NCBI GenBank assembly: GCA_032622095.1
Contig: CP136064.1
Location: 259,823,863 to 259,887,862 of the forward strand
DNA from: Siphonodentalium dalli
Lineage: Eukaryota > Mollusca > Scaphopoda > Gadilida > Siphonodentaliidae
Length of the DNA stretch: 64,000 nucleotides
Direction of reading: 5' to 3'
The number at the start of each line of letters is the position of its first letter. Positions within the stretch are counted from its first letter, which is position 1. The position numbers and the translations under genes are program-made. Positions 37,922-64,000 of the stretch are shown here, in pieces. The notes beneath the pieces were generated by a model. It searched no databases, was not told where the DNA came from, and was given only the letters and a program-made list of their open reading frames with translations.

Positions 37922-38010
37922 GCTATTGGACCTGCTCTGCTTGTGCCAGACGACAAAACGCATGCGACCTTCTCTGTTCATTTCTATGGAACCCTTCATC
38001 TACCGCAGAC

Positions 38011-38240
38011 ATGGCCACTCTTCGGTCACGCATGGCTTTATATTCTATTGCGGTTTTGTTCACCGGATATGCAAGTGTCATTCCTGGTCTTCTGGGTGGA
38101 GTTAGAGCAGCTAGTGATGCACCCTTACCGGAAGTATCTTCCCTGGAATTAGAAGTACAGCAAACTGGAGAGTGTTCTGTGACTGTCAATGGTAAGGTGA
38201 TTGATCTGAAACGACTGGCCAGTAAAGACGGATACCCTAG
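38011..38240 (+). CDS. MRH-like gene exon 1 (signal peptide, residues 1-76)
   Basis: ATG at 38011 opens MATLRSRMALYSIAVLFTGY, a basic N-terminus then a hydrophobic core, typical of a signal peptide. Downstream are Cys55 and the GKVIDLKRL strand. The exon ends GGATACCCTAG before GTAAGA; the AG joins a G from exon 2 to make Arg77. A TATAAA box lies 90-95 bp upstream of the ATG. Confidence 0.8.
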
Positions 38241-41200
38241 GTAAGATCACTACATATCGATATATCGATATATAATTCAGATCGATTATCAATATTACAT
38301 CGCGATGAACGCTATATGGTGTATTATGTGTTTACTTTACATGTATATAATATTATAGGAACATGACACTCTATGAATTGCAATAATGTCTAAAGATAAG
38401 TTGCATTTACGTCTTCGACGAGTGGCTAAATCGAGTAAACGATTATCACCATGGCATAACATGCTTATAGCACAATACAGGACATTGATAATTTATCGAT
38501 TTTAATTAATAACTGCCCAAGGTTCGTAATTAATCAAGGGTGAACAGTATACTCATGCATGCGTGATAGCTAATGAACATCGCGCTTAATTCGGCAATTA
38601 CATTTCAAAAGTCTCTTCTGTCACTGTCTTCGCTAGGTATAAGATACACATACAAGGTCATTGTCAATTTTGAAGGTAATTATGGAACTCTTTTTCTAAT
38701 AATCAACTGCCCTACCACCAGCCAAGTTAGCAATTTCAGAAAAATGATTGCGAAAATTTACTTCATACATTTTATTGCCAAATGCAAAAATTACAAAATG
38801 GTTAATTGCACTCTTAGAACAAATGTGTATAAGTACTACACAAATTGTGTTACATTTGATCTTAAACAAAATTGTGTAGAAATGCCACATGACATATAAT
38901 TATTAAATGTGTCGGTGGAATATCATCAACGTTGAATATGATTGAATATGTGAGTGTATCATAGTTATTAGATGAAATGTGTTCTATTGGAGACACAAAA
39001 CTCGTAAAGGCTACAACAGAACAAACAGCTTTAAACTTTGTTATACACTATGTTTGTGTAAAAACTAAACAACACATAATTGTGTAGATCAAAGTTTTAA
39101 ATCAGCTGCCAATTTGTTATTATGGCAGCTTTTACGAGGATTATGTCTCAAATAGAACATATCTCATCTACTAAATATAATATACTCACATATTCACTCA
39201 TATTCAATGTTGAGAAAATTCCACCGACACATTTATGTCATGTTGCATTCTACACAATTTTGTTTAAGATCAAATGTAACACATATTGTGTAGTATTTAT
39301 ACACATTTGTTCTAAGAGTGTGGGGCAAAACAACAAGGGACGGAATTTCTTGGCAGTTTTGATATGAGCGAGTATGGTTTATAACATCCTAATAGGGTGA
39401 TTCCCAGCTAGTGCAAATTGGAATGTCCCCAACACGTGTTATCACAATTGTAAACACATAGTATTTCCACGTGTATATAACCATGTAATCATGAATCACG
39501 TGTCTGTGTGTACATATTTGCATTTTCTTGTATATTATTTGTGTTACTATATATATAATTGATATATTTTCCACATTCATGATCTTTCTTTTTGGTCGTA
39601 TATATAGAGATTACATTTGTAATCTGATTAATTCAGTTGTTATGATTGATCCGACGACCACTGTGTAATGACCGCTCAATAACACGTTTTGAACAATAGA
39701 GGTGTACGATAAAGTAACATCCAGAGTGTATAGCTCGAATGACACTTTTCAGAATTGCTGCGATATTACCGCATTATATTTGTAAGTAGTCAAGTCAACA
39801 CAGGGTTTGACCTAGACAAAATGTGTACATAATTGATTTTATCGCTTTTCGAATCAGTATACATTGCAAGTCACAATTGCAAGTCACATTGCACTCACAG
39901 TTGTTGAATGTTAAAGGGACACAATGTACTCTAAAGGGACACGCGGCACTCACTGTGTTGAATGTTAAAGGGACACACGGTCTCAGTGGTTGAAAATTAA
40001 TAGGACACAGAACAAAATTTTAAACTTTAAAATTCCTAAAATAAAAAACGTTAAAAACTAAAAGAAAAGTATAAAATTAAAAACAAAATATAAAAACTTT
40101 AAAAACTTAAAAAAAATTCCAAAAGTAAAAAACAATTAAAATTTTCCAAAATTTCAAATTTTTCCAAAATTAAAAAATAAAATAAAATGTTTAAGCATAA
40201 TAAAAAAAAAAATTCATGTTCAATTTTCCAAGCGTTAAAAAAAAAAAAATTTAAATCTCGATACAATTTACCAATTTAAAACTTTTTCCGCATAATTGGC
40301 ACCCGTGCATTATCACGAATTATAGGGAGAACGATCGCCCTTATACAAGCGAAAAGAAGAGAGAACATGGTCACTCGCCACATTAAAAAAAAGTGCAGCC
40401 CCCTCCCCAACTTTTTTTTTGGTTTAGGTTTTTTTAGCCAGGGTAACACGAGGTTATAAGTGTAATAGACCACCCGTATTGTATTTTGTTACTTTAACAC
40501 AGGGAGTGGGGAAGTTAAGTGTAATAACTAGATCACCCATATTGTATTTTGTTACTTTAACACGGGGAATGGGGAAGTTAAGTGTAATAACTAGATCACC
40601 CATATTGTATTTTGTTACTTTAACACGGGGAATGGGGAAGTTAAGTGTAATAACTAGACCACGCGTATTGTATTGTGTTACTTTAACACGGGGAATGGGG
40701 AAGTTAAGTGTAATAACTAGACCACGCGTATTGTATTGTGTTACTTTAACACGGGGAATGGGGAAGTTAATTGTAATAACTAGACCACATGTATTGTATT
40801 GTGTTACTTTGACACGGGGAACGGGGAATTTAAGTTTTATAACGAGACCACCCATATTGTATTGTGTTACTTTAATACGGGGAATGGGGAAGTTAAGTGT
40901 AATAGACCGCATGTAACGTATTGTGTTACTTTAACATGGGGAATGGGGAGTAAAGTGTAATAGCTAGACCACCCGTGTTGTATATATTGTGTTACTTTAA
41001 CTCGGGGGATGGGGAGTAAAGTGTAATAGACCACATGTATTGTATTGTATTACTTTAACATGGTGAATGGGGAAGTTAAGTGTAATAACTAGACCACCCG
41101 TATTGTATTGTGTTATACTTTAACATGGGGAATGGGGAGTAAAGTGTAATAGCTAGACCGCATGTATTGTATTGTGTTACTTTAACATGGGGAAGGGGAA

Positions 41201-44200
41201 AGTTAAGTTTAATAACTTGACCACTCGTATTGTATTGTGTTACTTTAACGTGGGGAATGGGGAGTAAAGTGTAATAGCTAAACCGCAATGTTGTATTGTG
41301 TTACTTTAACACGGGGAATGGGAAAAAGTTAAGTGTATAGACCACGTGTATTGTATTGTGTTACATTAACATGGGAATGGGGAAGTTACGTGTAATAGCT
41401 GGACCATATGTATTGTATTGTGTTATTTTAACCATTTCTATACTGGATTCTCCCAACGAGTTATACAAATACACATTGGGACTGTCTATTATTCATTTAG
41501 ATGGGTGTTCATGTAATAAAAGCAGACGACATAAAAAAAAACAGATAAAGCAATAGCAGAATGATTCATATTAATTGGCGGGAAATGTTCAGATAATAAG
41601 TTCTGCGGTCGTTTGTTGAACTTCATTTCTGAACATTTCCTAATATAAGGGAACTAGTTGTTTATGAGTATGAGTATTTAGTATACTACGGTTTAAATTT
41701 AAGAGTATTTAGTATAGCAAGGTTTAAATTTAAGAGTATTTAGTATAGTAAGGTTTAAATTTAAGAGTATTTAGTATAGAAAAGTTTAAATTTAAGAGTA
41801 TTTAGTATAGTAAGGTTTAAATTTAAGAGTATTTAGTATAGTAAGGTTTAAATTTAAGAGTATTTAGTATAGTAAGGTTTAAATTTAAGAGTATTTAGTA
41901 TATAAAGGGTTAAATTTATGAGTATTTAGTATAAACAGGGTTAATTTATGAGTATTTAGTATAGTAATGTTTAAATTTATGAGTATTTAGTATAAACAGG
42001 GTTAATTTATGAGTATTTAGTATAGTAAGGTTTAAATTTAAGAGTATTTAGTATAGTAAGGTTTAAATTTAAGAGTATTTAGTATAGTACGGTTTAAATT
42101 TAAGAGTATTTAGTATAGAAAGGGTTAAATTTATGAGTATTTAGTATAGTAAGGTTTAAATTTATGAGTATTTAGTATAGTAAGGTTTAAATTTAAGAGT
42201 ATTTAGTATAGTAAGGTTTAAATTTAAGAGTATTTAGTATAGTAAGGTTTAAATTTAAGAGTATTTAGTATAGTAAGGTTTAAATTTAAGAGTATTTAGT
42301 ATATTAAGGTTTAAATTTAAGAGTATTTAGTATAGTAAGGTTTAAATTTAAGAGTATTTAGTATAGAAAGGTTTAAATTTAAGAGTATTTAGTATAAACA
42401 GGGTTAATTTATGAGTATTTAGTATAGTAAGGTTTAAATTTATGAGTATTTAGTATACTACGGTTTCAATTTAAGAGTATTTAGTATAGTAAGGTTTAAA
42501 TTTAAGAGTATTTAGTATAGTAAGGTTTAAATTTAAGAGTATTTAGTATAGAAAGGTTTAAATTTAAGAGTATTTAGTATAGTAAGGTTTAAATTTAAGA
42601 GTATTTAGTATAGAAAGGGTTAAATTTATGAATATTTAGTATAAACAGGGTTAATTTATGAGTATTTAGTATAGTAAGGTTTAAATTTATGAGTATTTAG
42701 TATAGTAAGGTTTAAATTTAAGAGTATTTAGTATAGTAAGGTTTAAATTTATGAGTATTTAGTATATTAAGGTTTAAATTTAAGAGTATTTAGTATAGTA
42801 AGGTTTAAATTTATGAGTATTTAGTATAGTAAGGTTTAAATTTATGAGTATTTAGTATAATAAGGTTTAAATTTAAGAGTATTTAGTATAGTAAGGTTTA
42901 AATTTAAGAGTATATAGTATATTAAGGTTTAAATTTAAGAGTATTTAGTATAGTAAGGTTTAAATTTAAGAGTATTTAGTATAGAAAGGGTTAAATTTAT
43001 GAGTATTTAGTATAGTAAGATTTAAATTTAAGAGTATTTAGTATAGTAATGTTTAAATTTATGAGTATTTAGTATAAACAGGGTTAATTTATGAGTAATT
43101 AGTATAGTAAGGTTTAAATTTAAGAGTATTTAGTATAGTAAGGTTTAAATTTAAGAGTATTTAGTATAGTAAGGTTTAAATTTAAGAGTATTTAGTATAG
43201 TAAGGTTTAAATTTAAGAGTATATAGTATAGAAAGGGTTAAATTTATGAGTATTTAGTATAGTAAGGTTTAAATTTATGAGTATTTAGTATAGTAAGGTT
43301 TAAATTTAAGAGTATTTAGTATAGTAAGGTTTAAATTTAAGAGTATTTAGTAAAGTAAGGTTTAAATTTAAGGGTATTTAGTATAGTAAGGTTTAAATTT
43401 AAGAGTATTTAGTATAGTAAGGTTTAAATTTAAGAGTATGTAGTATAGAAAGGGTTAAATTTATGAATATTTAGTATAAACAGGGTTAATTTATGAGTAT
43501 TTAGTATAGTAAAGTTTAAATTTAAGAGTATTTAGTATAGTAAGGTTTAAATTTAAGAGTATTTAGTATAGTAAGGTTTAAATTTAAGGGTATTTAGTAT
43601 AGTAAGGTTTAAATTTAAGAGTATTTAGTATAGTAAGGTTTAAATTTAAGAGTATTTAGTATAGAAAGGGTTAAATTTATGAATATTTAGTATAAACAGG
43701 GTTAATTTATGAGTATTTAGTATAGTAAAGTTTAAATTTATGAGTATTTAGTATAAACAGGGTTAATTTATGAGTATTTAGTATAGTAAGGTTTAAATTT
43801 AAGAGTATTTAGTATAGTAAGGTTTAAATTTAAGAGTATTTAGTATAGTAAGGTTTAAATTTATGAGTATTTAGTATAGTAAGGTTTAAATTTAAGAGTA
43901 TATAGTATAGAAAGGGTTAAATTTATGAGTATTTAGTATAAACAGGGTTAATTTATGAGTATTTAGTATAGTAAGGTTTAAATTTAAGAGTATTTAGTAT
44001 AGTAAGGTTTAAATTTAAGAGTATTTAGTATAGTACGGTTTAAATTTAAGAGTATTTAGTATAGAAAGGGTTAAATTTATGAGTATTTAGTATAGTAAGG
44101 TTTAAATTTATGAGTATTTAGTATAGTAAGGTTTAAATTTAAGGGTATTTAGTATAGTAAGGTTTAAATTTAAGAGTATTTAGTATAGTAAGGTTTAAAT

Positions 44201-46714
44201 TTAAGAGTATTTAGTATAGAAAGGGTTAAATTTATGAATATTTAGTATAAACAGGGTTAATTTATGAGTATTTAGTATAGTAAAGTTTAAATTTATGAGT
44301 ATTTAGTATAAACAGGGTTAATTTATGAGTATTTAGTATAGTAAGGTTTAAATTTAAGAGTATTTAGTATAGTAAGGTTTAAATTTAAGAGTATTTAGTA
44401 TAGTAAGGTTTAAATTTATGAGTATTTAGTATAGTAAGGTTTAAATTTAAGAGTATATAGTATAGAAAGGGTTAAATTTATGAGTATTTAGTATAGTAAG
44501 GTTTAAATTTATGAGTATTTAGTATAGTAAGGTTTAAATTTAAGAGTATTTAGTATAGTAAGGTTTAAATTTAAGAGTATTTAGTATAGTAAGGTTTAAA
44601 TTTAAGGGTATTTAGTATAGTAAGGTTTAAATTTAAGAGTATTTAGTATAGTAAGGTTTAAATTTAAGAGTATTTAGTATAGAAAGGGTTAAATTTATGA
44701 ATATTTAGTATAAACAGGGTTAATTTATGAGTATTTAGTATAGTAAAGTTTAAATTTATGAGTATTTAGAATAGTAATGTTTAAATTTAAGAGTATTTAG
44801 TATAGTAAGGTTTAAATTTATGAGTATTTAGTATAGTAAGGTTTAAATTTAAGAGTATTTAGTATAGTAAGGTTTAAATTTATGAGTATTTAGTATAGTA
44901 AGGGTTAAATTTGTGAGTATTTAGTATAGTAAGGTTTAAATTTATGAGTATTTAGTATAGTAAGGTTTAAATTTAAGAGTATTTAGTATAGTAAGGTTTA
45001 AATTTATGAGTATTTAGTATAGTAAGGTTTAAATTTAAGAGTATTTAGTATAGTAAGGTTTAAATTTATGAGTATTTAGTATAGTGAGGTTTAAATTTAT
45101 GAGTATTTAGTATAGAAAGGTTTAAATTTAAGAGTATTTAGTATAGTAAGATTTAAATTTAAGAGTATTTAGTATAGTAAGGTTTAAATTTAAGAGTATT
45201 TAGTATAGAAAGGGTTCAATTTATGAGTATTTAGTATAGAAAGGGTTCAATTTATGAGTATTTAGTATAGATATGTTTTAATTTATGAGTATTTAGTATA
45301 GTAAGGTTTAAATTTAAGAGTATTTAGTATAGAAAGGGTTAAATTTATGAGTATTTAGTATAGAAAGAGTTAAGACACCTCAAGCTTCATACGTTTCGCT
45401 GCAGGTTGTTCACGGTGCGTGACGGTTGGAACTATACGTTTGATCCGTGTAGTGCTTTCAATGTACCCAAAGTACCATATCTCAAGAAGAGTGACACTCT
45501 GGGTGATGATTGCGTCTTGGTGGCGGTAAGTACGGTACACACTTAGCATTTACTTATTCAAGTGCAGTGGTGCAATGGACCCATCCAATATATAATAATA
45601 TGCGTATTAGATATACTGCTGCATGTCTATTATGTAATGTATGAGTTAATTGAAACGCAATTGTAAAACGAATATTATCGTTTGGTGTTTGTCAATTATA
45701 TGGGCGTTTGCGCACATCCATTGCGCAGATGATAAAGATACCAGAAAATTTTTTCTCTCTCAGTTTCTTAGGCAAAAAATTCATATGTGGCACATGCCAA
45801 TGTGTTGATGTTCACAATTTAATATATAATATGTGTTAAATGTGATGGGCTGCAAAAAGATGTGCGCCGAGCAAAGCGAATCGGGAAAAGTGGATCAATC
45901 ATATAAAATGACTAATTTCCGGTAGACATGGGAAAATTTGACACGTTGGATTGAAAAATTTGTGTATTGCCCGGAACTTTTTTCCTGCCCCCCCCCCCCC
46001 CCCCCCCGGTAGACCTAATCTACCTGATGTGATACGGTACATCCCATTGTAAATGTGTTTTGGGATCTTAAACTGGGAAGAATTGTGTAGTAAGCAATGG
46101 AATTATGCAGTAAACGAAATAATTGACAGTTCTAAAATAAAATCCAAACACCAATTCAATCCTTTATGTCAGTGGAGAGATCGCTCAAAGCCGTTGTTCG
46201 CCCACGTCACCACCGTTTCCTTCTGATTCGATGAAACCTGGACTTTTTTACTATGTTTTTATCGTAAGGTAAGCATGTCTGAGGCGGAATGAACAATACC
46301 ATGGGTGATATGTGCTTCGCGTAACCCAGACACGTACAATAAATTAAACAATGTGGCTGTTATACTGTCGAAATTCGTAGAAACATTGACAAAACTCTTC
46401 GCCTCGATTATTCTAAAAATGGTAACAATCGCCACCGTTGTTTGTCGTTAAACGCCGTTGTAACTCGATCACCGCCGTTGGACATCGATCCGCGCCGATG
46501 TAATTGCTTCCCTGTCGTCACTTGATTACATTCGATTGACACGAGTTATCTGTGCTTGTTGTATTCATTTTGATCCTGTGTAGCTCTGCAAGTACAAGGA
46601 AGCGGAGCGGAGTTGGTATTTCCCCATCGGCGTTCAAAGCAAAAAGTCATTTCACGCAACTTACGACACGGCTCATAAATCTATGATGGTGGAGATGGCA
46701 TACAGGGGAATATC
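38011..46714 (+). CDS. MRH-domain-like secreted/lumenal protein, first three exons (3' partial)
   Basis: Exons 38011-38240, 45405-45525 and 46584-46714 join in frame (phase 2, then phase 0) into 160 complete codons plus two bases, with a donor at the end, so the gene continues downstream. Residues 1 to about 34 form a hydrophobic signal peptide. Then come Cys55, GKVIDL, Pro76-Arg77, WNYTFDPC (possible N-glycan at Asn86; Cys92), Cys113 and Cys119, and a beta-rich stretch SWYFPIG to MMVEMAYRG. This order resembles mannose-6-phosphate-receptor-homology domains, which fold lumenal sugar-binding or lookalike modules. The Gln that usually follows the fourth Cys is Lys120, so sugar binding is doubtful. 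No later exon was found before 64000; the next intron would exceed 17 kb. Confidence 0.7.
38809..39320. repeat. 512-bp inverted repeat in intron 1 of the MRH-like gene
   Basis: CACTCTTAGAACAAATGTGT at the left is matched by its complement ending at 39320. Arms of about 240 bp with scattered mismatches and a centre near 39060. Transcribed, it would fold into a long hairpin. Confidence 0.85.
40018..40270. repeat. A-rich low-complexity stretch
   Basis: AAAATTAAAAAC-like runs on the plus strand. Just upstream (39900-40000) are four AAAGGGACACA motifs. No gene. Confidence 0.8.
40453..41434. repeat. ~62-bp minisatellite, about 16 copies
   Basis: Units carry TTGTGTTACTTTAACACGGG, GAATGGGGAAGTTAAGTG and TAATAACTAGACCAC. 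Open on both strands for 145-152 codons because the unit lacks stops in those frames. Confidence 0.9.
41579..41641. repeat. 63-bp hairpin
   Basis: GGGAAATGTTCAGATAATAA pairs with AACTTCATTTCTGAACATTT imperfectly. A related sequence lies at 15758-15790. Confidence 0.65.
41670..45371. repeat. 3.7-kb array of a 31-bp unit, about 119 copies
   Basis: Unit contains GTATTTAGTATAG and AAGGTTTAAATTTA, with variants AAACAGGGTTAATTTATGA (29 bp), AAAGGGTTAAATTTATGA and GTAAAGTTTAAA. The variants recur in blocks (for example near 43450, 43670, 44220 and 44690), showing higher-order duplication. It ends 33 bp before exon 2 of the MRH-like gene. Confidence 0.95.
45405..45525 (+). CDS. MRH-like gene exon 2 (residues 77-117)
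   Basis: Follows GCTGCAG and ends at GTAAGT. It encodes LFTVRDGWNYTFDPCSAF, then the CVLVA strand after a Gly-Asp-Asp turn. NYT is an N-glycosylation sequon. The acceptor lies only 33 bp past the end of a 3.7-kb array of a 31-bp repeat, so the branch-point region touches repeat DNA. Confidence 0.85.
45526..46583. other. intron 2 of the MRH-like gene
   Basis: No further exon seen. Contains a C-homopolymer of about 18 at 45991-46007. Confidence 0.7.
46584..46714 (+). CDS. MRH-like gene exon 3 (residues 118-160 plus 2 nt)
   Basis: Starts after TGTGTAG with LCKYKEAERSWYFPIG and ends MAYRGI plus TC before GTGAGT. The order Cys-x5-Cys across the exon 2/3 join, a Gly after a Phe-Pro-Ile strand, and the closing Tyr-x-Gly fit the MRH pattern. 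The last codon is split (phase 2), so the protein must continue. Confidence 0.83.
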
Positions 46715-47227
46715 GTGAGTACATATCGATATACCAGATACACGCTCGGTATTATGACGCTGGGAGAGCTCGCAATTGCTCGGGAAATATGCATTGTCAC
46801 TCAGGGACGTTCCTATGGGTTCCAACTGGGGAGGGGGTGAGACGACCATAAAATTTCCAACTATAATTAAATAAAATTTCCAACTATATATGATTTGTTC
46901 TAATAAAAATTCCAACTATATAGGATTTAGTTTTAACTTTGAGTATTGCAACATTTCAATATTGGCTTAATTGCTTAATAATTTGGGTTTCTATATGTTC
47001 TTGTGTAAATAAAGACACTAGTAACAAGACTGACAAAGCATTGATCCATGTGTTATGTATTGAGTACACTGTGCATATATACAGTACATGTACATTATAC
47101 ATGATATTAATCAGAATATTGTTGAGGAACGAATACGAGTTACATGTATTCAAATTCCAAGGAGTCACAAGTTATAACTCACACAATGGTAACAATTATG
47201 CATGCTGAATGATTGCTATAACGTTAA

Positions 47228-48744
47228 GGGTACGTTCATACGCTGGCAATATTGCACTGCAAACTGCAAAAATGCCAGCTGCAAAATTGCCAAAACGGAT
47301 TAATTTCTGCCCACTGTCAACACATCATTGTTAGTAGTGATCAATGAACGACAGCCGTTTTGCGTGATTGATGAGCTGTTTTGCAATATATTGGAACAGG
47401 ATACCTGTTGGTATTCTTAGGCCAGTCAAAATAATGTCACTTGACTTGTTGGAATGTGATATCGCCACGGCCAGCTCTCTCGCTGGGATGCTGCTCATAT
47501 ATGAGTACAATAAACGTCACATAGACAGGAGATGGTGGATCCGCACTCGTTTTCAAATTGCCGACGTATAGTGTGCAATCCTCTCTGGGATAGCACCATT
47601 ACAATAAATTTATATTCACTCCGAATATTACTAGGTCGTTTTACGCAACGAAACCCATCCGCATCACACAAGTTACAAGTAAAATAATTATAAATGTCAT
47701 TTCGGTAGTATTCTACTTACAAACCCACAAACCACACAAACGCTTTTCAGCGGAATTACAGCATTCAAAAGTGGGTTGTAGTAGACGGCCCTTTCAAATC
47801 TTCCCGGGTATAATCCCAAACTCCAAACTGATCATTCAAATAATTTTAGTCACAAACTCGTTGGTCTTCATGTTAAGCAAAACAATAAGTTAAGAACAAC
47901 GGGGGGACGTGGTGCTGATGTTAAACAAAACAAAGAAATCAAATAAATAGTAACAGAAGTTAATCAAAAGCACACAATATATTGTTATTCAAATGGCATG
48001 AATAATTATATAGGCCCATAGATATGCTTTATCAATGCCAGAGACTAACATCCCATTATCCCTACTGTTAGACCCAACCTCCACCACGACGACACAAGCA
48101 GTTACTTTTAAACCACTACAATTACATCGATATCGCAGTCTGGGTAGATGGCGTTGGCACGTATTCGAACCCCAGCGACCAGCGTGGTCGAAAATCGTGA
48201 CCAATTTTCAAGCTTGATCTGAATTGGGTGATATCTCAATGTGCCATTCTGATCGATACATGACCATTTCGATAACAATTGAGAATTTGTACACGCTCAC
48301 TGAAGTAAGCACATTTGAAGCAATGCATGGATACTCATAGTGAGTCCTGCCACCATGCACCCCCGCCCTGTAGCTCCCACATTTATGACTCGGGAAGCAT
48401 CACTTTTTGGTATTCTTTGTACGCCTTATCACCATTAATATCCTCATATAACGGAGATTCACACTCATGTATAATTAAGTGTTTATGAGAATCACAGAGA
48501 ACACACCCCGATCCCATTTGATCGTATCAAGGACGGTACAGACACCATCAATTATTGTTAGTGGCCTTGAGTTGTGATATACGCCGTTATCATATATCAC
48601 CGTTGATTGTTGACCATCCACGACCGAGCACGAGCTGGTCGGTAGCTGGCAAAAATGCCAGCTAACAAAATAAAACAAAAACAACCTTTGCAGCTGGCAT
48701 TTTTGCAGTTTGCAGTGCAATATTGTCAGCGTATGAACGTACCC
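47228..48744. mobile_element. 1.5-kb Harbinger-type transposon, decayed
   Basis: GGGTACGTTCATACGCTGGC at the left pairs with the complement of GTCAGCGTATGAACGTACCC at the right; the match continues for about 55 bp with few changes. TAA flanks both ends (47225-47227, 48745-48747). It contains the remnant frame at 47368-47571. The GGGT-GC ends are like the element at 21323-22290. Confidence 0.85.
47368..47571 (+). pseudogene. Harbinger transposase-related N-terminal remnant
   Basis: A 67-codon frame ending LLIYEYNKRHIDRRWWIRTRF then QIADV and a stop. An Arg-rich stretch with Arg-Arg-x-Trp-x-x-Arg is common near the N-terminus of HARBI1/ALP1-like transposases. The DDE catalytic part is absent. 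Its place inside a TAA-flanked TIR element supports the call; the protein match alone is weak. Confidence 0.45.
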
Positions 48745-48864
48745 TAAAGCTCTCAGAAAGATATGGAGGTTTGATATTACTAATAGAATAGTGACCCTGA
48801 ATCTATGGTTGGTAAACATACCAGTCAGAACTTGAAGGAAATGCTTTGACTTAAATTTAATTAA

Positions 48865-49226
48865 AGACATATTATGTACTTGTTCGGGTTCGTGAAACTG
48901 ATAAGTTAGTATTGAGACAACTGGAGGCCTGTAACATTCTACTAACGTCGGCGAAAATTTGAAGCAAATCGACCGTACCACTCCATAGATAAACATCGTC
49001 AGAACTACGCTCAATTGTAAATATTTTCTACTCGATTCGGGACGCATCTATCGGCGATAAACTAACGAAAACGATTTCGCCATCGAGAGTCACTGCATTT
49101 AATTCATATATAAGAATGACGGTGTGTGTTGTCAATTTAGATATACTATTTTTAATATTTACTACTTTGAACAAGATTATTCTCCATTTGTATTTGATCA
49201 CCATATCGGTGTGTTTCACATCACTT
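48865..49226 (+). mobile_element. TTAA MITE family 2, copy 3
   Basis: Starts AGACATATTATGTACTTG after TTAA (48861-48864). The right end CATCACTTT is followed by a mutated target (TTAT). Confidence 0.8.
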
Positions 49227-49460
49227 TTATATATGTGTTCAGGTAATGAGCATTACTGGAATGTATTTACTCAAATGACTGTTTTAACTTGTAACATTGA
49301 CATTACATTGTTATGTACCTTGCAGGACAAATTTAAATAAACTGATTAATATACTGCTATGAGAGGAACTTATAATGTATAAGTGGAAGTCCTCTTGAAC
49401 ATTTATAACAATAATAAAAAAAACACACACGTTTAACATATATACATATCAACAAGTTAA

Positions 49461-49825
49461 AGACATATTATGGACTTGTTCGGGTGCTTGAAACTGATAA
49501 GTTAGTATTCTGGCGCTATACCAACTGGAGGAATGTAGCATTCTACTAACATTGCCGAAAATCTCAAAGCAAATCGACCTTACCACTCCATAGAAAACAT
49601 ATGCTCAATTGCAAATATTTACTACTCGATTCGGGACGCAGCTATCGGCGATAAACTACCGAAAACGATTTCGCCATCTAAAGTCTCTGTATTTAATGAA
49701 TATATAAGAATGACTGAGCGTGTTGTAATTTTGGAATTAATATTTGTAAAGATAACTATACTTTGAGCAAAGTTATATATTCTCCATTTCTATTTGATCA
49801 CCATACCGGAGTGTTTCACATGACT
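49461..49825 (+). mobile_element. TTAA MITE family 2, copy 4
   Basis: AGACATATTATGGACTTG to CACATGACT, TTAA on both sides. Same orientation as copy 3, about 235 bp away. Confidence 0.87.
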
Positions 49826-50020
49826 TTAACAATATATTGAGTGAAAGGCACCACATGATTTGAAAAGCTCAAATTAAAAAAATATAATAGAATCCTGGTT
49901 CGGAATTCGGAAAAAAACAATTTGTACAATTCCGGAATTGGAAAATCAGTGATGAGTATCTAGAATAAGCGAGATCACTGATTCACGGCCGCACTGGATT
50001 AGCTCCGTTCTGTGGTTAGC

Positions 50021-50162
50021 CCCGGTTCCGTGATTTTAGTGCTACCGGTCAAAGTTCCGGAGTAGAATTTCCATATATGGAAGTCAAGAATAGTTCATGA
50101 CTTCCATATATGGAATGCTACTCCAAACCTTTGACCTGTAGCACTAAAACCACGGAACCGGG
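50021..50162. repeat. 142-bp fold-back element, copy 1
   Basis: CCCGGTTCCGTGATTTTAGT, then GGTCAAAGTTCCGGAGTAG and TTCCATATATGGAAGTCA, pair with the right half (TGACTTCCATATATGGAA to CGGAACCGGG). Confidence 0.88.
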
Positions 50163-50417
50163 CCTGCGCGGTGGATCCAATATGTCCGTATTTATAGTGA
50201 CAGGGCGTATTGGAATTCCGAAAATAAACAACCGGCACAAATTCGGAGTCGGAAAATCGCGAACTCTGATTGAAACACTTAGATCATTTAATTTACATGT
50301 TACTTTTAATCTCCAACTATTGGAATTTGAGTCATGAAATTTAAACTGTTGAAAATTATGGTCCTCATGGGGGTGAGACATTCCCCACCCCCCTCCGTTG
50401 GTACGTGCCTGTTGTCG

Positions 50418-50610
50418 CTGAGTCGCGGTCATATTGGATCTCTGCAGCCCCGTTCCGTTTTTTTGTGCTACAGGTCAAAGTTCTGGAGTAGCATTTCATA
50501 TATGGAATTCATGAATATTGAAAAGCTCCATATATGGAATGCTACTCCAGAACCTATATTTTGCACTAAAAACGGAACGGGACTCGATCCAAAATATCGC
50601 CGCGACTCAG
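50418..50610. repeat. 193-bp fold-back element, copy 2
   Basis: CTGAGTCGCGGTCATATTGG outside, then CCCGTTCCGTTTTTTTGTGC and AAGTTCTGGAGTAGCATTTC, pairing with the right half ending CCGCGACTCAG. Inner arms match copy 1. Confidence 0.88.
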
Positions 50611-51544
50611 GCGTATATATAAGACAGGCGTATATATAAGACAGACCATGCAAACATACGGATTTATCGCTATAGACCGCGGACTAAAACACATTACGCT
50701 CCGTTTTAAAACGATCATATCAAAGCGAACATAATTTATTCTAAAAGGCATGAGCATTTCAACTGGGATTGTAAGAACTGGTGGAGACTCAAGCTTCATA
50801 ATTTTGTTTCCCACCACACGCGTGTGACAATCCCGCCGCGACATATCACTGTCATATTTAACTGACATCGGAAGCCCTTTGTGAAATAAAAGCTATATAA
50901 TGCACTTAAAATACCATACCATCTGTTGTCATGAAAATCAACAAAATTCAAGCGAATGTCAAAACATTATTTGAAACGCCATATTAAAATACCTTTTGAT
51001 GCATCTGTGACCTAGTGTTTGCATGGTGTTTTATATCGTAGAATTATAGTCACTGTAACTTGAGAGAACGTTTGTGTCGACAAAAGTGTGCCATGAAATC
51101 GTGTGGTGGTTGTTATAATGATAACTAGTAATTCTAATCCTATTTTGGTTACGGTTCATTTGTGATTTTCTGTGACATGGAACCGTAGCCTCGCACCAAA
51201 AATAGATATGCCCGATATTATGAACATCCAACGTTTGAGCTTTCCTGAATGAAAAGAGGTCTTAATCGTGTTTCATATTACGGACAGCTAAACTACAATA
51301 TATAACATAGTTCACATATCAGTGGAAAATACTGGGCCCAGATGTCATTATCAGCATTTTATCGTCGTGACCCGAACCACTGAGAACGATATACTCGGTA
51401 TGTATTTATATGCATGTGGTAACATAAATAATGAGTATATATTCATCATGAATCCATGCACTCAAGAAGGTTTTGTTTTCATATAACATACGTAATGTAT
51501 TGAATGTGGACAATGCACCATTTCACACCATTTCACACCATTTC
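50611..51544. other. unique sequence before the 40-bp array
   Basis: No gene or repeat recognised. Just before the array CACCATTTCA occurs three times (51518-51545). Confidence 0.5.
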
Positions 51545-54500
51545 GCGTACCTATGGTATTACGTGCAGGCTATTATCTATCTCTGCTTACCTGTGGTATT
51601 ACGTACAGGCTATTATCTATCTCTGCATACCTATGGTATTACGTGCATGCTATTATCTATCTCTGCATACCTATGGTATTACGTGCAGGCTATTATCTAT
51701 CTCTGCATACCTATGGTATTACGTGCAGGCTATTATCTATCTCTGTTTACCTATGGTATTACGTGCAGGCTATTATCTATCTCTGTTTACCTATGGTATT
51801 ACGTGCAGGCTATTATCTATCTCTGTTTACCTATGGTATTACGTGCAGGCTATTATCTATCTCTGCATACCTATGGTATTACGTGCAGGCTATTATCTAT
51901 CTCTGCATACCTATGGTATTACGTGCAGGCTATTATCTATCTCTGCATACCTATGGTATTACGTGCAGGCTATTATCTATCTCTGCATACCTATGGTATT
52001 ACGTGCAGGCTATTATCTATCTCTGCATACCTATGGTATTACGTGCAGGCTATTATCTATCTCTGCATACCTATGGTATTACGTGCAGGCTATTATCTAT
52101 CTCTGCATACCTATGGTATTACGTGCAGGCTATTATCTATCTCTGCATACCTATGGTATTACGTGCAGGCTATTATCTATCTCTGCATACCTATGGTATT
52201 ACGTGCAGGCTATTATCTATCTCTGCATACCTATGGTATTACGTGCAGGCTATTATCTATCTCTGCATACCTATGGTATTACGTGCAGGCTATTATCTAT
52301 CTCTGCATACCTATGGTATTACGTGCAGGCTATTATCTATCTCTGCATACCTATGGTATTACGTGCAGGCTATTATCTATCTCTGTTTACCTATGGTATT
52401 ACGTGTAGGCTATTATCTATCTCTGCATACCTATGGTATTACGTGCAGGCTATTATCTATCTCTGCATACCTATGGTATTACGTGCAGGCTATTATCTAT
52501 CTCTGCATACCTATGGTATTACGTGCAGGCTATTATCTATCTCTGCATACCTATGGTATTACGTGCATGCTATTATCTATCTCTGCATACCTATGGTATT
52601 ACGTGCAGGCTATTATCTATCTCTGCATACCTATGGTATTACGTGCATGCTATTATCTATCTCTGCATACCTATGGTATTACGTGCAGGCTATTATCTAT
52701 CTCTGCATACCTATGGTATTACGTGCAGGCTATTATCTATCTCTGCATACCTATGGTATTACGTGCAGGCTATTATCTATCTCTGCATACCTATGGTATT
52801 ACGTGCAGGCTATTATCTATCTCTGTTTACCTATGGTATTACGTGCAGGCTATTATCTATCTCTGCATACCTATGGTATTACGTGCAGGCTATTATCTAT
52901 CTCTGCATACCTATGGTATTACGTGCAGGCTATTATCTATCTCTGCATACCTATGGTATTACGTGCAGGCTATTATCTATCTCTGCATACCTATGGTATT
53001 ACGTGCAGGCTATTATCTATCTCTGCATACCTATGGTATTACGTGCAGGCTATTATCTATCTCTGCATACCTATGGTATTACGTGCAGGCTATTATCTAT
53101 CTCTGTTTACCTATGGTATTACGTGCATGCTATTATCTATCTCTGCTTACCTATGGTATTACGTGCAGGCTATTATCTATCTCTGCATACCTATGGTATT
53201 ACGTGCAGGCTATTATCTATCTCTGCATACCTATGGTATTACGTGCAGGCTATTATCTATCTCTGTTTACCTATGGTATTACGTGCAGGCTATTATCTAT
53301 CTCTGCATACCTATGGTATTACGTGCAGGCTATTATCTATCTCTGCTTACCTATGGTATTACGTGCAGGCTATTATCTATCTCTGTTTACCTATGGTATT
53401 ACGTGCAGGCTATTATCTATCTCTGCTTACCTATGGTATTACGTGCATGCTATTATCTATCTCTGCATACCTATGGTATTACGTGCAGGCTATTATCTAT
53501 CTCTGCTTACCTATGGTATTACGTGCAGGCTATTATCTATCTCTGCATACCTATGGTATTACGTGCAGGCTATTATCTATCTCTGCTTACCTATGGTATT
53601 ACGTGCAGGCTATTATCTATCTCTGCATACCTATGGTATTACGTGCATGCTATTATCTATCTCTGCATACCTATGGTATTACGTGCAGGCTATTATCTAT
53701 CTCTGCATACCTATGGTATTACGTGCAGGCTATTATCTATCTCTGCATACCTGTGGTATTACGTGCAGACTATTATCTATCTCTGCTTACCTATGGTATT
53801 ACGTGCAGGCTATTATCTATCTCTGTTTACCTATGGTATTACGTGCAGGCTATTATCTATCTCTGCTTACCTATGGTATTACGTGCAGGCTATTATCTAT
53901 CTCTGCATACCTATGGTATTACGTGCAGGCTATTATCTATCTCTGCTTACCTATGGTATTACGTGCAGGCTATTATCTATCTCTGCATACCTATGGTATT
54001 ACGTGCATGCTATTATCTATCTCTGCATACCTATGGTATTACGTGCAGGCTATTATCTATCTCTGCATACCTATGGTATTACGTGCAGGCTATTATCTAT
54101 CTCTGCATACCTATGGTATTACGTGCATGCTATTATCTATCTCTGCATACCTATGGTATTACGTGCAGGCTATTATCTATCTCTGTTTACCTATGGTATT
54201 ACGTGCAGGCTATTATCTATCTCTGCATACCTATGGTATTACGTGCAGGCTATTATCTATCTCTGCATACCTATGGTATTACGTGCAGGCTATTATCTAT
54301 CTCTGTTTACCTATGGTATTACGTGCAGGCTATTATCTATCTCTGTTTACCTATGGTATTACGTGCAGGCTATTATCTATCTCTGCATACCTATGGTATT
54401 ACGTGCAGGCTATTATCTATCTCTGCATACCTATGGTATTACGTGCAGGCTATTATCTATCTCTGCTTACCTATGGTATTACGTGCAGGCTATTATCTAT

Positions 54501-57500
54501 CTCTGCTTACCTATGGTATTACGTGCAGGCTATTATCTATCTCTGCATACCTATGGTATTACGTGCATGCTATTATCTATCTCTGCATACCTATGGTATT
54601 ACGTGCAGGCTATTATCTATCTCTGCATACCTATGGTATTACGTGCAGGCTATTATCTATCTCTGCATACCTATGGTATTACGTGCAGGCTATTATCTAT
54701 CTCTGCATACCTATGGTATTACGTGCATGCTATTATCTATCTCTGCATACCTATGGTATTACGTGCAGGCTATTATCTATCTCTGTTTACCTATGGTATT
54801 ACGTGCAGGCTATTATCTATCTCTGCATACCTATGGTATTACGTGCAGGCTATTATCTATCTCTGCATACCTATGGTATTACGTGCAGGCTATTATCTAT
54901 CTCTGTTTACCTATGGTATTACGTGCAGGCTATTATCTATCTCTGCATACCTATGGTATTACGTGCATGCTATTATCTATCTCTGTTTACCTATGGTATT
55001 ACGTGCAGGCTATTATCTATCTCTGTTTACCTATGGTATTACGTGCAGGCTATTATCTATCTCTGCATACCTATGGTATTACGTGCAGGCTATTATCTAT
55101 CTCTGCATACCTATGGTATTACGTGCAGGCTATTATCTATCTCTGCATACCTATGGTATTACGTGCAGGCTATTATCTATCTCTGCATACCTATGGTATT
55201 ACGTGCAGGCTATTATCTATCTCTGCATACCTATGGTATTACGTGCAGGCTATTATCTATCTCTGCATACCTATGGTATTACGTGCAGGCTATTATCTAT
55301 CTCTGTTTACCTATGGTATTACGTGCAGGCTATTATCTATCTCTGCATACCTATGGTATTACGTGCAGGCTATTATCTATCTCTGCATACCTATGGTATT
55401 ACGTGCAGGCTATTATCTATCTCTGTTTACCTATGGTATTACGTGCAGGCTATTATCTATCTCTGCTTACCTATGGTATTACGTGCAGGCTATTATCTAT
55501 CTCTGCATACCTATGGTATTACGTGCATGCTATTATCTATCTCTGCATACCTATAGTATTACGTGCAGGCTATTATCTATCTCTGCATACCTATGGTATT
55601 ACGTGCAGGCTATTATCTATCTCTGCATACCTATGGTATTACGTGCAGGCTATTATCTATCTCTGTTTACCTATGGTATTACGTGCAGGCTATTATCTAT
55701 CTCTGTTTACCTATGGTATTACGTGCAGGCTATTATCTATCTCTGCTTACCTATGGTATTACGTGCAGGCTATTATCTATCTCTGCATACCTATGGTATT
55801 ACGTGCAGGCTATTATCTATCTCTGCTTACCTATGGTATTACGTGCAGGCTATTATCTATCTCTGCATACCTATGGTATTACGTGCATGCTATTATCTAT
55901 CTCTGCATACCTATGGTATTACGTGCAGGCTATTATCTATCTCTGCATACCTATGGTATTACGTGCAGGCTATTATCTATCTCTGTTTACCTATGGTATT
56001 ACGTGCAGGCTATTATCTATCTCTGCATACCTATGGTATTACGTGCAGGCTATTATCTATCTCTGTTTACCTATGGTATTACGTGCAGGCTATTATCTAT
56101 CTCTGCATACCTATGGTATTACGTGCAGGCTATTATCTATCTCTGTTTACCTATGGTATTACGTGCAGGCTATTATCTATCTCTGCATACCTATGGTATT
56201 ACGTGCAGGCTATTATCTATCTCTGTTTACCTATGGTATTACGTGCAGGCTATTATCTATCTCTGCATACCTATGGTATTACGTGCAGGCTATTATCTAT
56301 CTCTGCATACCTATGGTATTACGTGCTGGCTATTATCTATCTCTGTTTACCTATGGTATTACGTGCAGGCTATTATCTATCTCTGTTTACCTATGGTAAT
56401 ACGTGCAGGCTATTATCTATCTCTGCATACCTATGGTATTACGTGCAGGCTATTATCTATCTCTGCTTACCTATGGTATTACGTGCAGGCTATTATCTAT
56501 CTCTGCTTACCTATGGTATTACGTGCAGGCTATTATCTATCTCTGCATACCTATGGTATTACGTGCAGGCTATTATCTATCTCTGTTTACCTATGGTATT
56601 ACGTGCAGGCTATTATCTATCTCTGCATACCTATGGTATTACGTGCAGGCTATTATCTATCTCTGTTTACCTATGGTATTACGTGCAGGCTATTATCTAT
56701 CTCTGCATACCTATGGTATTACGTGCAGGCTATTATCTATCTCTGCATACCTATGGTATTACGTGCAGGCTATTATCTATCTCTGCATACCTATGGTATT
56801 ACGTGCAGGCTATTATCTATCTCTGCATACCTATGGTATTACGTGCAGGCTATTATCTATCTCTGTTTACCTATGGTATTACGTGCAGGCTATTATCTAT
56901 CTCTGCATACCTATGGTATTACGTGCAGGCTATTATCTATCTCTGCTTACCTATGGTATTACGTGCAGGCTATTATCTATCTCTGTTTACCTATGGTATT
57001 ACGTGCAGGCTATTATCTATCTCTGCATACCTATGGTATTACGTGCAGGCTATTATCTATCTCTGTTTACCTATGGTATTACGTGCAGGCTATTATCTAT
57101 CTCTGCATACCTATGGTATTACGTGCAGGCTATTATCTATCTCTGCATACCTATGGTATTACGTGCAGGCTATTATCTATCTCTGCATACCTATGGTATT
57201 ACGTGCAGGCTATTATCTATCTCTGCATACCTATGGTATTACGTGCAGGCTATTATCTATCTCTGCATACCTATGGTATTACGTGCAGGCTATTATCTAT
57301 CTCTGCATACCTATGGTATTACGTGCAGGCTATTATCTATCTCTGTTTACCTATGGTATTACGTGTAGGCTATTATCTATCTCTGCATACCTATGGTATT
57401 ACGTGCAGGCTATTATCTATCTCTGCATACCTATGGTATTACGTGCAGGCTATTATCTATCTCTGTTTACCTATGGTATTACGTGCAGGCTATTATCTAT

Positions 57501-60500
57501 CTCTGTTTACCTATGGTATTACGTGCAGGCTATTATCTATCTCTGCTTACCTATGGTATTACGTGCAGGCTATTATCTATCTCTGTTTACCTATGGTATT
57601 ACGTGCAGGCTATTATCTATCTCTGCATACCTATGGTATTACGTGCAGGCTATTATCTATCTCTGTTTACCTATGGTATTACGTGCAGGCTATTATCTAT
57701 CTCTGTTTACCTATGGTATTACGTGCAGGCTATTATCTATCTCTGTTTACCTATGGTATTACGTGCAGGCTATTATCTATCTCTGCATACCTATGGTATT
57801 ACGTGCAGGCTATTATCTATCTCTGCATACCTATGGTATTACGTGCAGGCTATTATCTATCTCTGCATACCTATGGTATTACGTGCAGGCTATTATCTAT
57901 CTCTGCATACCTATGGTATTACGTGCAGGCTATTATCTATCTCTGCATACCTATGGTATTACGTGCAGGCTATTATCTATCTCTGCATACCTATGGTATT
58001 ACGTGCAGGCTATTATCTATCTCTGCATACCTATGGTATTACGTGCAGGCTATTATCTATCTCTGCATACCTATGGTATTACGTGCAGGCTATTATCTAT
58101 CTCTGCATACCTATGGTATTACGTGCAGGCTATTATCTATCTCTGCATGCCTATGGTATTACGTGCAGGCTATTATCTATCTCTGCATACCTATGGTATT
58201 ACGTGCAGGCTATTATCTATCTCTGCATACCTATGGTATTACGTGCAGGCTATTATCTATCTCTGCATACCTATGGTATTACGTGCAGGCTATTATCTAT
58301 CTCTGTTTACCTATGGTATTACGTGTAGGCTATTATCTATCTCTGCATACCTATGGTATTACGTGCAGGCTATTATCTATCTCTGCATACCTATGGTATT
58401 ACATGCAGGCTATTATCTATCTCTGCATACCTATGGTATTACGTGCAGGCTATTATCTATCTCTGCATACCTATGGTATTACGTGCATGCTATTATCTAT
58501 CTCTGCATACCTATGGTATTACGTGCAGGCTATTATCTATCTCTGCATACCTATGGTATTACGTGCAGGCTATTATCTATCTCTGTTTACCTATGGTATT
58601 ACGTGCATGCTATTATCTATCTCTGCATACCTATGGTATTACGTGCAGGCTATTATCTATCTCTGTTTACCTATGGTATTACGTGCAGGCTATTATCTAT
58701 CTCTGCATACCTATGGTATTACGTGCAGGCTATTATCTATCTCTGCATACCTATGGTATTACGTGCAGGCTATTATCTATCTCTGCATACCTATGGTATT
58801 ACGTGCAGGCTATTATCTATCTCTGCATACCTATGGTATTACGTGCAGGCTATTATCTATCTCTGTTTACCTATGGTATTACGTGCATGCTATTATCTAT
58901 CTCTGCTTACCTATGGTATTACGTGCAGGCTATTATCTATCTCTGCATACCTATGGTATTACGTGCAGGCTATTATCTATCTCTGCATACCTATGGTATT
59001 ACGTGCAGGCTATTATCTATCTCTGTTTACCTATGGTATTACGTGCAGGCTATTATCTATCTCTGCATACCTATGGTATTACGTGCAGGCTATTATCTAT
59101 CTCTGCTTACCTATGGTATTACGTGCAGGCTATTATCTATCTCTGTTTACCTATGGTATTACGTGCAGGCTATTATCTATCTCTGCATACCTATGGTATT
59201 ACGTGCAGGCTATTATCTATCTCTGCTTACCTATGGTATTACGTGCATGCTATTATCTATCTCTGCATACCTATGGTATTACGTGCAGGCTATTATCTAT
59301 CTCTGCTTACCTATGGTATTACGTGCAGGCTATTATCTATCTCTGCATACCTATGGTATTACGTGCAGGCTATTATCTATCTCTGCTTACCTATGGTATT
59401 ACGTGCAGGCTATTATCTATCTCTGCATACCTATGGTATTACGTGCATGCTATTATCTATCTCTGCATACCTATGGTATTACGTGCAGGCTATTATCTAT
59501 CTCTGCATACCTATGGTATTACGTGCAGGCTATTATCTATCTCTGCATACCTGTGGTATTACGTGCAGACTATTATCTATCTCTGCTTACCTATGGTATT
59601 ACGTGCAGGCTATTATCTATCTCTGTTTACCTATGGTATTACGTGCAGGCTATTATCTATCTCTGCTTACCTATGGTATTACGTGCAGGCTATTATCTAT
59701 CTCTGCATACCTATGGTATTACGTGCAGGCTATTATCTATCTCTGCATACCTATGGTATTACGTGCAGGCTATTATCTATCTCTGCATACCTATGGTATT
59801 ACGTGCAGGCTATTATCTATCTCTGCTTACCTATGGTATTACGTGCAGGCTATTATCTATCTCTGTTTACCTATGGTATTACGTGCAGGCTATTATCTAT
59901 CTCTGTTTACCTATGGTATTACGTGCATGCTATTATCTATCTCTGTTTACCTATGGTATTACGTGCATGCTATTATCTATCTCTGCATACCTATGGTATT
60001 ACGTGCAGGCTATTATCTATCTCTGCATACCTATGGTATTACGTGCAGGCTATTATCTATCTCTGCTTACCTATGGTATTACGTGCAGGCTATTATCTAT
60101 CTCTGCATACCTATGGTATTACGTGCATGCTATTATCTATCTCTGCATACCTATGGTATTACGTGCAGGCTATTATCTATCTCTGCATACCTATGGTATT
60201 ACGTGCAGGCTATTATCTATCTCTGCATACCTATGGTATTACGTGCATGCTATTATCTATCTCTGCATACCTATGGTATTACGTGCAGGCTATTATCTAT
60301 CTCTGTTTACCTATGGTATTACGTGCAGGCTATTATCTATCTCTGCATACCTATGGTATTACGTGCAGGCTATTATCTATCTCTGCATACCTATGGTATT
60401 ACGTGCAGGCTATTATCTATCTCTGTTTACCTATGGTATTACGTGCAGGCTATTATCTATCTCTGTTTACCTATGGTATTACGTGCAGGCTATTATCTAT

Positions 60501-63500
60501 CTCTGCATACCTATGGTATTACGTGCAGGCTATTATCTATCTCTGTTTACCTATGGTATTACGTGCAGGCTATTATCTATCTCTGCATACCTATGGTATT
60601 ACGTGCAGGCTATTATCTATCTCTGCATACCTATGGTATTACGTGCAGGCTATTATCTATCTCTGTTTACCTATGGTATTACGTGCAGGCTATTATCTAT
60701 CTCTGCATACCTATGGTATTACGTGCAGGCTATTATCTATCTCTGCATACCTATGGTATTACGTGCAGGCTATTATCTATCTCTGCATACCTATGGTATT
60801 ACGTGCAGGCTATTATCTATCTCTGCATACCTATGGTATTACGTGCAGGCTATTATCTATCTCTGCTTACCTATGGTATTACGTGCAGGCTATTATCTAT
60901 CTCTGTTTACCTATGGTATTACGTGCAGGCTATTATCTATCTCTGTTTACCTATGGTATTACGTGCAGGCTATTATCTATCTCTGCATACCTATGGTATT
61001 ACGTGCAGGCTATTATCTATCTCTGCATACCTATGGTATTACGTGCAGGCTATTATCTATCTCTGCATACCTATGGTATTACGTGCAGGCTATTATCTAT
61101 CTCTGCATACCTATGGTATTACGTGCAGGCTATTATCTATCTCTGCATACCTATGGTATTACGTGCAGGCTATTATCTATCTCTGCATACCTATGGTATT
61201 ACGTGCAGGCTATTATCTATCTCTGTTTACCTATGGTATTACGTGCAGGCTATTATCTATCTCTGCATACCTATGGTATTACGTGCAGGCTATTATCTAT
61301 CTCTGCATACCTATGGTATTACGTGCAGGCTATTATCTATCTCTGTTTACCTATGGTATTACGTGCAGGCTATTATCTATCTCTGCTTACCTATGGTATT
61401 ACGTGCAGGCTATTATCTATCTCTGCATACCTATGGTATTACGTGCATGCTATTATCTATCTCTGCATACCTATGGTATTACGTGCAGGCTATTATCTAT
61501 CTCTGCATACCTATGGTATTACGTGCAGGCTATTATCTATCTCTGCATACCTATGGTATTACGTGCAGGCTATTATCTATCTCTGTTTACCTATGGTATT
61601 ACGTGCAGGCTATTATCTATCTCTGTTTACCTATGGTATTACGTGCAGGCTATTATCTATCTCTGCTTACCTATGGTATTACGTGCAGGCTATTATCTAT
61701 CTCTGCATACCTATGGTATTACGTGCAGGCTATTATCTATCTCTGCTTACCTATGGTATTACGTGCAGGCTATTATCTATCTCTGCATACCTATGGTATT
61801 ACGTGCATGCTATTATCTATCTCTGCATACCTATGGTATTACGTGCAGGCTATTATCTATCTCTGCATACCTATGGTATTACGTGCAGGCTATTATCTAT
61901 CTCTGCATACCTATGGTATTACGTGCAGGCTATTATCTATCTCTGTTTACCTATGGTATTACGTGCAGGCTATTATCTATCTCTGTTTACCTATGGTATT
62001 ACGTGCAGGCTATTATCTATCTCTGTTTACCTATGGTATTACGTGCAGGCTATTATCTATCTCTGTTTACCTATGGTATTACGTGCAGGCTATTATCTAT
62101 CTCTGCATACCTATGGTATTACGTGCAGGCTATTATCTATCTCTGCATACCTATGGTATTACGTGCAGGCTATTATCTATCTCTGCTTACCTATGGTATT
62201 ACGTGCAGGCTATTATCTATCTCTGTTTACCTATGGTATTACGTGCAGGCTATTATCTATCTCTGCATACCTATGGTATTACGTGCAGGCTATTATCTAT
62301 CTCTGTTTACCTATGGTATTACGTGCAGGCTATTATCTATCTCTGCATACCTATGGTATTACGTGCAGGCTATTATCTATCTCTGCATACCTATGGTATT
62401 ACGTGCAGGCTATTATCTATCTCTGCATACCTATGGTATTACGTGCAGGCTATTATCTATCTCTGCATACCTATGGTATTACGTGCAGGCTATTATCTAT
62501 CTCTGTTTACCTATGGTATTACGTGCAGGCTATTATCTATCTCTGCATACCTATGGTATTACGTGCAGGCTATTATCTATCTCTGCTTACCTATGGTATT
62601 ACGTGCAGGCTATTATCTATCTCTGTTTACCTATGGTATTACGTGCAGGCTATTATCTATCTCTGCATACCTATGGTATTACGTGCAGGCTATTATCTAT
62701 CTCTGTTTACCTATGGTATTACGTGCAGGCTATTATCTATCTCTGCATACCTATGGTATTACGTGCAGGCTATTATCTATCTCTGCATACCTATGGTATT
62801 ACGTGCAGGCTATTATCTATCTCTGTTTACCTATGGTATTACGTGCAGGCTATTATCTATCTCTGCATACCTATGGTATTACGTGCAGGCTATTATCTAT
62901 CTCTGTTTACCTATGGTATTACGTGCTGGCTATTATCTATCTCTGTTTACCTATGGTATTACGTGCAGGCTATTATCTATCTCTGTTTACCTATGGTATT
63001 ACGTGCAGGCTATTATCTATCTCTGCATACCTATGGTATTACGTGCAGGCTATTATCTATCTCTGCATACCTATGGTATTACGTGCAGGCTATTATCTAT
63101 CTCTGCTTACCTATGGTATTACGTGCAGGCTATTATCTATCTCTGTTTACCTATGGTATTACGTGCAGGCTATTATCTATCTCTGCATACCTATGGTATT
63201 ACGTGCAGGCTATTATCTATCTCTGCATACCTATGGTATTACGTGCAGGCTATTATCTATCTCTGCATACCTATGGTATTACGTGCAGGCTATTATCTAT
63301 CTCTGTTTACCTATGGTATTACGTGCAGGCTATTATCTATCTCTGCATACCTATGGTATTACGTGCAGGCTATTATCTATCTCTGCATACCTATGGTATT
63401 ACGTGCAGGCTATTATCTATCTCTGCATACCTATGGTATTACGTGCAGGCTATTATCTATCTCTGCATACCTATGGTATTACGTGCAGGCTATTATCTAT

Positions 63501-64000
63501 CTCTGTTTACCTATGGTATTACGTGCAGGCTATTATCTATCTCTGCATACCTATGGTATTACGTGCAGGCTATTATCTATCTCTGCTTACCTATGGTATT
63601 ACGTGCAGGCTATTATCTATCTCTGTTTACCTATGGTATTACGTGCAGGCTATTATCTATCTCTGCATACCTATGGTATTACGTGCAGGCTATTATCTAT
63701 CTCTGTTTACCTATGGTATTACGTGCAGGCTATTATCTATCTCTGCATACCTATGGTATTACGTGCAGGCTATTATCTATCTCTGCATACCTATGGTATT
63801 ACGTGCAGGCTATTATCTATCTCTGCATACCTATGGTATTACGTGCAGGCTATTATCTATCTCTGCATACCTATGGTATTACGTGCAGGCTATTATCTAT
63901 CTCTGCATACCTATGGTATTACGTGCAGGCTATTATCTATCTCTGCATACCTATGGTATTACGTGCAGGCTATTATCTATCTCTGTTTACCTATGGTATT
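51545..64000 (+). repeat. 12.4-kb satellite array, 40-bp unit, about 311 copies, runs off the window
   Basis: Every unit holds CTATGGTATT, ACGTGCAGGC and TATTATCTAT plus a variable decamer: CTCTGCATAC, CTCTGCTTAC or CTCTGTTTAC. A second variable site is CAGGC/CATGC. No insertion or deletion is visible from 51545 to 64000. The unit lacks stops in all three plus frames, which creates open frames of up to 1350 codons; 40 is not a multiple of three, so the implied peptide has a 40-residue period. Probably in a downstream intron of the MRH-like gene. Confidence 0.97.

Follow-up and report, generated by a model that had tools for sequence, protein, structure and literature searches.

A 40-bp minisatellite of 927 units in Siphonodentalium dalli that was probably born inside a copy of a short dispersed repeat

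Introduction

Minisatellites are described as non-coding arrays with units of 11-60 bp that usually total a few hundred bp (PMC12692304), or as arrays of up to 100 units (PMC6947457); the passages cited from both papers call such size limits loose. Their origin from transposable elements is documented, for example from Alu, SINE B1 and LTR elements, and the model given in the cited part of the review has a first duplication between short (5-10 bp) repeats that flank the motif, followed by slippage, conversion or unequal crossing-over (PMC6947457). The Tetris foldback transposon of Drosophila virilis, as described in the section cited here, contains tandem repeats that have given rise to satellite-like arrays of kilobase size (PMC4079207). 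Maps of the MSY1 and INS minisatellites write each allele as a string of variant units, and the cited part of that work notes block duplications together with a preponderance of single-variant duplications (PMC2674676).

Here we describe a tandem array in the scaphopod Siphonodentalium dalli that has features in common with each of these systems. Like the minisatellites born from transposable elements, it has a unit taken from within a dispersed element, but it contains 927 units where the cited passage of the review gives up to 100. As with Tetris, element-derived repeats form a satellite-like array of kilobase size; in the cited account of Tetris the tandem repeats lie within the element, whereas here the other checked copies hold no longer tandem and one locus has been amplified. 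The array can also be written as a string of variant units with block duplications, as in the MSY1 and INS maps, but its neighbouring units show no excess identity, unlike the single-variant duplications that predominate in the cited part of those maps.

Results

The window analysed is a stretch of 64,000 nucleotides (C4:259,823,863-259,887,862) from a genome of 2.23 Gb in 9 contigs. Tandem Repeats Finder (TRF) placed a 40-bp array on its plus strand from 51,548 to the window edge (51548..64000; 311 full units and a remainder), with 311.3 copies, 97% matches and 0% indels. A 40-bp array reaching the edge had been claimed in an earlier, sequence-only reading of this DNA, and this is confirmed, although the first base lies 3 bases later than the start at 51545 given there. 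The right end was located by reading 37 kb beyond the window. It lies 24,685 bases past the edge, and the whole array (C4:259,875,410-259,912,547) comprises 37,138 bases without any N, about three times what the window holds, its length being that in one assembly. It is composed of 927 full 40-bp units and two 29-bp units; the latter are identical, have an 11-bp deletion in common and are located past the window edge. The spacing of a core word in the window part is strictly 40 or 80, and the register, intact within the window, is interrupted twice further right. The absence of indels claimed in the sequence-only reading therefore holds for the window but not for the two short units beyond it.

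In the assembled sequence of 2.2 billion letters, from which parts of the genome may be absent, a tandem array of the unit was found at this locus only. A genome search with a 31-base unit pattern (≤3 mismatches) gave 927 forward matches, none in reverse and none for the backwards control. The number of matches equals that of the full units in the array, and a pattern of this stringency misses more divergent single copies of the unit. Such single unit-like copies are present elsewhere, in a dispersed repeat (see below); the search for the unit outside this locus that had been proposed in the sequence-only reading thus yielded single copies but no other tandem array. For comparison, 13 pieces of 10 kb were sampled at round-number positions elsewhere; TRF, with periods of up to 500, assigned 13,396 of their 130,000 bases (10%) to tandem repeats. 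No single array in this sample exceeded ~2 kb within a piece (one, in L016, begins at the cut edge), the sample being too small to rate the rarity of giant arrays.

Variation between units is concentrated at a few sites, as had been claimed. Sites 21, 39 and 40 account for 696 of the 758 differences from the consensus across the 927 full units, and the mean difference between units, 2.8% overall, falls to 0.35% once these three sites are excluded. About half of the full units (468 of 927) are identical to the consensus, and none has more than 4 differing sites. There are 28 distinct site-and-base variants among the units, 14 of which are transitions, and the CpG at unit sites 15-16 is intact in 925 of the 927 units. 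The 311 full units of the window part fall into 14 sequence types, and the whole array can be written as a string of 929 letters with 38 unit types.

The order of these unit types is non-random beyond chance, and shows growth by block copying. The longest run of unit types that recurs exactly comprises 47 units (1,880 bp), its two occurrences lying 450 units apart, compared to 9-13 units in 20 shuffles, and 543 of the 929 units belong to exact repeats that are 14 units long or longer (0-30 in 20 shuffles). Units 130-416 align with units 560-890 with a score of 284 (at most 22 in 50 shuffles); 242 of the 259 aligned units are identical, with 28 and 72 units unaligned. Tandem blocks are also present at lags of 46 and 63 units. 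There are many lags rather than one regular many-unit period of the kind expected for a higher-order repeat, and at the best lag with more than 100 overlapping units (481), 47% of units match compared to 34% expected. Of all pairs of adjacent units, 31.8% are identical, compared to 33.6% (sd 1.2) in 2000 shuffles; as neighbour identity is not above that in shuffles, single-unit doubling left no trace. The exact 47-unit repeat and the low difference outside the three variable sites support the recent amplification suggested in the sequence-only reading, and give no age for it.

At its right edge, outside the window, the array adjoins the remaining ~260 bp of a dispersed repeat (L003:4688-4949). 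When the right flank (L003:4688-5030) was used as a query, its first ~262 bases matched this repeat at tens of places (40 of 59 candidates scored). The junction between the unit end and its right neighbour (35 bases, ≤3 mismatches) is present at 15 genome sites, 14 of them elsewhere, compared to 0 for the control. A single unit-like sequence stands just before the neighbour stretch in several copies: it matches the unit at 97% over 35 bases in L024, at 94% over 36 bases in L026 and L031, at 89% over 36 bases in L025, and with 21 exact bases in L029. L023 also contains a unit-like sequence (94% over 35 bases), but 280 bp further from the neighbour stretch. Of 30 fetched copies of the element, picked from search matches and hence non-random, 23 contain the unit stretch and seven lack it (L027, L028, L030, L032, L038, L048 and L052). 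None of the 30 has a longer tandem of the stretch; in L029 two partial copies of it are adjacent, and L036 contains the element twice.

Within the element copies, the unit stretch consists of 5 bases, 8 bases that are missing from the array, and 35 bases. With the unit split in this way (5 + 35 around an 8-bp gap), 25-37 of its 40 bases match in 22 copies (from 21 loci; L029 and L049, with a partial stretch, were left out), and the 5 bases are exact in 9 of the 22. The ACG of the array, which holds the CpG, occurs in none of these copies, and 17 of them have ATG instead. Many copies share the unit stretch together with ~75 bp to its left and 262 bp to its right. Because the 8 bp and the ATG are present in the copies, and the stretch is shared with both neighbours, the array appears to be the derived form. 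From these comparisons we conclude that the array is probably an amplified segment of one copy of the dispersed element, an origin that was not anticipated in the sequence-only reading.

The founding copy of the element seems to be only partly seen, because the element's left part (75 bp) was not found beside the left edge of the array; L024 is one other copy that likewise lacks this part. No likeness was found between the unit and its flanks (62-213 of 300 shuffles were as good), in keeping with a right flank that retains just what follows the unit in the element. The sequence CTTAT (5 bp), in the size range of the flanking repeats in the cited part of the review model (PMC6947457), is present on both sides of the motif in 8 of the 22 copies, yet a 2-base GC match fits the consensus junction equally well. 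Other tandems occur in or near copies of the element. Different stretches of the element itself are repeated in L029 (57 bp x 9; 2673-3185, element orientation; 98% matches) and L031 (29 bp x 3; 2319-2404, element orientation; 100% matches), and further minisatellites lie near element copies in L024 (1366-1959; 32 bp x ~15) and L030 (3201-3611; 24 bp x 17).

The sequence-only reading had claimed that the plus strand of the array is stop-free in all three frames, and had proposed that the strand asymmetry be tested for transcription or translation. The consensus unit alone is indeed free of stops on plus, with 5 on minus, but the array does contain plus stops: 1, 4 and 0 in the three frames of the window part (5 in total), and 4, 8 and 2 in the whole array (14 in total). 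The minus frames of the window part have 546-563. The three plus frames amount to one fact: as the unit length of 40 is not divisible by 3, all of them run through an identical set of 40 codon positions. In shuffled units, one strand and only one is free of stops in 7.6% of cases when bases are shuffled and in 27% when dinucleotides are. Stop-making variants make up 4 of the 28 observed, compared to 23 of 120 possible changes (~5 expected; P = 0.35, a weak test), and one stop-making change is carried by 11 units. The plus stops, the lack of avoidance of stop-making variants and the frequency of one-strand stop-freedom in shuffles all speak against translation, and the array does not keep an open frame as expected for a repeat protein gene.

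Searches for RNA structure and for protein families around the array were negative. The predicted fold of one three-unit stretch was no better than that of shuffles on either strand, and an Rfam search of 37,000-53,000 gave no match. No Pfam family was found in the plus frames of 38,242-51,542, in the minus frames of 45,400-51,540, in L003 from 4,700 onward (plus frames), or in L004 (both strands). The same method did detect a dehydrogenase at 25 kb in the window, where likely exons of a short-chain dehydrogenase lie on the minus strand (25,721-25,575 and 25,340-25,083; Pfam adh_short, PDB 1xg5). Further putative exons near 20.9 and 15.9 kb were picked out by eye, and Pfam gave no dehydrogenase match for the putative exon near 15.9 kb. 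Upstream of the array on the plus strand there is a candidate first exon (38,012-38,241) with a start codon, a hydrophobic N-terminus and a GT donor; Pfam gave no match for it and PDB a single weak one (E 0.32), and its continuation was not found. A mannose-6-phosphate-receptor-like domain was considered for a gene starting at 38,012 and found no support: a pattern search was without match, and the CIMR and Man-6-P_recep matches listed are on other contigs or no closer than 18 Mb.

The surroundings of the array contain several other repeats. Directly to its left is a 10-bp tandem of 2.9 copies (51516..51544), and the left flank (50640..51545) was present only here (1 candidate, 1 scored). A self-complementary dispersed repeat of ~200 bp (50412..50610) lies 0.9 kb to the left and has at least 39 other copies (40 of 1,477 candidates scored) with 81-87% identity in the better orientation; no relation to the array unit was seen. 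About 1 kb to the right of the array there begins a different, young dispersed repeat (L003 from ~5600; C4:259,913,460 onward), with at least 39 other scored copies, which are 96-99% identical to the query across 380-500 bp of it. A second long minisatellite in the window (41672-45367) has a 31-bp unit in ~120 copies with 92% matches, and its plus strand contains just 22 C among 3,696 bases; the register is broken at 9 of its 66 core spacings, and TRF rounds its indels to 0%. It is preceded by a 63-bp array (40466-41432).

Discussion

The explanation that we consider clearly the most probable is that the array is a non-coding minisatellite, born inside a copy of a short dispersed repeat and grown to 927 units largely by block copying. 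A stretch that is single in other copies of the element would have been duplicated in tandem, after or with the loss of 8 bp, and this first duplication may have used short matching bases. The array would then have grown at a single locus, largely by blocks of tens to hundreds of units (~1.8 to 13 kb), while gain and loss of units, together with point mutations, would have led to the 38 unit types. Block copying of this kind may reflect unequal exchange between sister chromatids or homologues, and the array is presumably neutral. Several points count against this explanation: the element's left part is missing beside the array, 7 of the 30 fetched copies lack the unit stretch, and the far blocks are not beside their source, unlike the expectation from simple tandem duplication. 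To account for the far copies, one would have to invoke additional deletions, other alleles or a different route. A more speculative proposal, to which we would give a small chance, is that the dispersed repeat is a minisatellite nursery, with different stretches amplified in different copies (the 40-bp unit here, and those of L029 and L031). Its long arrays would then grow by block copying through something other than plain unequal exchange, for instance by break-induced replication or by excised circles that re-insert.

An assembly artefact, in which a shorter array was inflated or two haplotypes were joined end to end, is unlikely. Joined haplotypes would themselves yield a duplicated half such as the near copies at units 130-416 and 560-890, and the four contig ends read have no TTAGGG- or TTAGG-type arrays and hence give no telomere-to-telomere sign. 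However, the array is without N, it has several lags and not one, and its longest exact repeat, at 1,880 bp, falls below the length of common long reads. Selection on the length of the unit, or on a motif within it (nucleosome phasing or a factor site), is very improbable. The strict spacing in the window, compared to the register-breaking spacings of the neighbouring 31-bp array, would fit such selection, as would the near-complete conservation of a CpG that is absent from all 22 element copies, but descent from one founding unit followed by young block copying explains both. Moreover, selection on length is not needed, as in-register exchange maintains the period and the 29-bp unit occurs twice.

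We regard the two remaining alternatives as scarcely credible. That element copies each acquired a single unit from an older satellite would account for single units beside the element at many places, but not for the stretch that many copies share with both neighbours, for the 8 bp that these copies have and the array lacks, or for the ATG found where the array has ACG. A translated repeat protein or a functional plus-strand transcript would be in line with the stop-free plus strand of the consensus, and the GT donor of the candidate exon upstream means that the array could be intronic. Against this are the plus stops of the whole array, the shuffle frequencies, the stop-making variants that are not avoided (by the weak test above), the unremarkable three-unit folds, and the lack of any Pfam family in plus frames from the exon to the array or in the 12.3 kb after it.

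The origin of the array within a dispersed repeat also bears on how it is classed. With a 40-bp unit in 927 copies and no sign of coding constraint it is a minisatellite by unit length, although at 37.1 kb and 927 units it exceeds both of the usual sizes given in the Introduction. It is also a tandem repeat of the transposable-element-derived kind, its unit being single in a dispersed element elsewhere that is known here as a dispersed repeat only. A classical satellite would have arrays at many places, and here there is one array (at ≤3 mismatches per 31 bases), with no longer array of the unit in the 30 fetched copies. The array is thus an unusually long, traceable case of the known kind of minisatellite born from a transposable element. 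The process as such is already known. At this one locus a long tandem array can be traced from its birth through its growth, with single-copy relatives that reveal the starting state and 38 unit types that record the copied blocks. It can therefore serve as a test case for the origin of satellite-like arrays in dispersed repeats and for their later growth.
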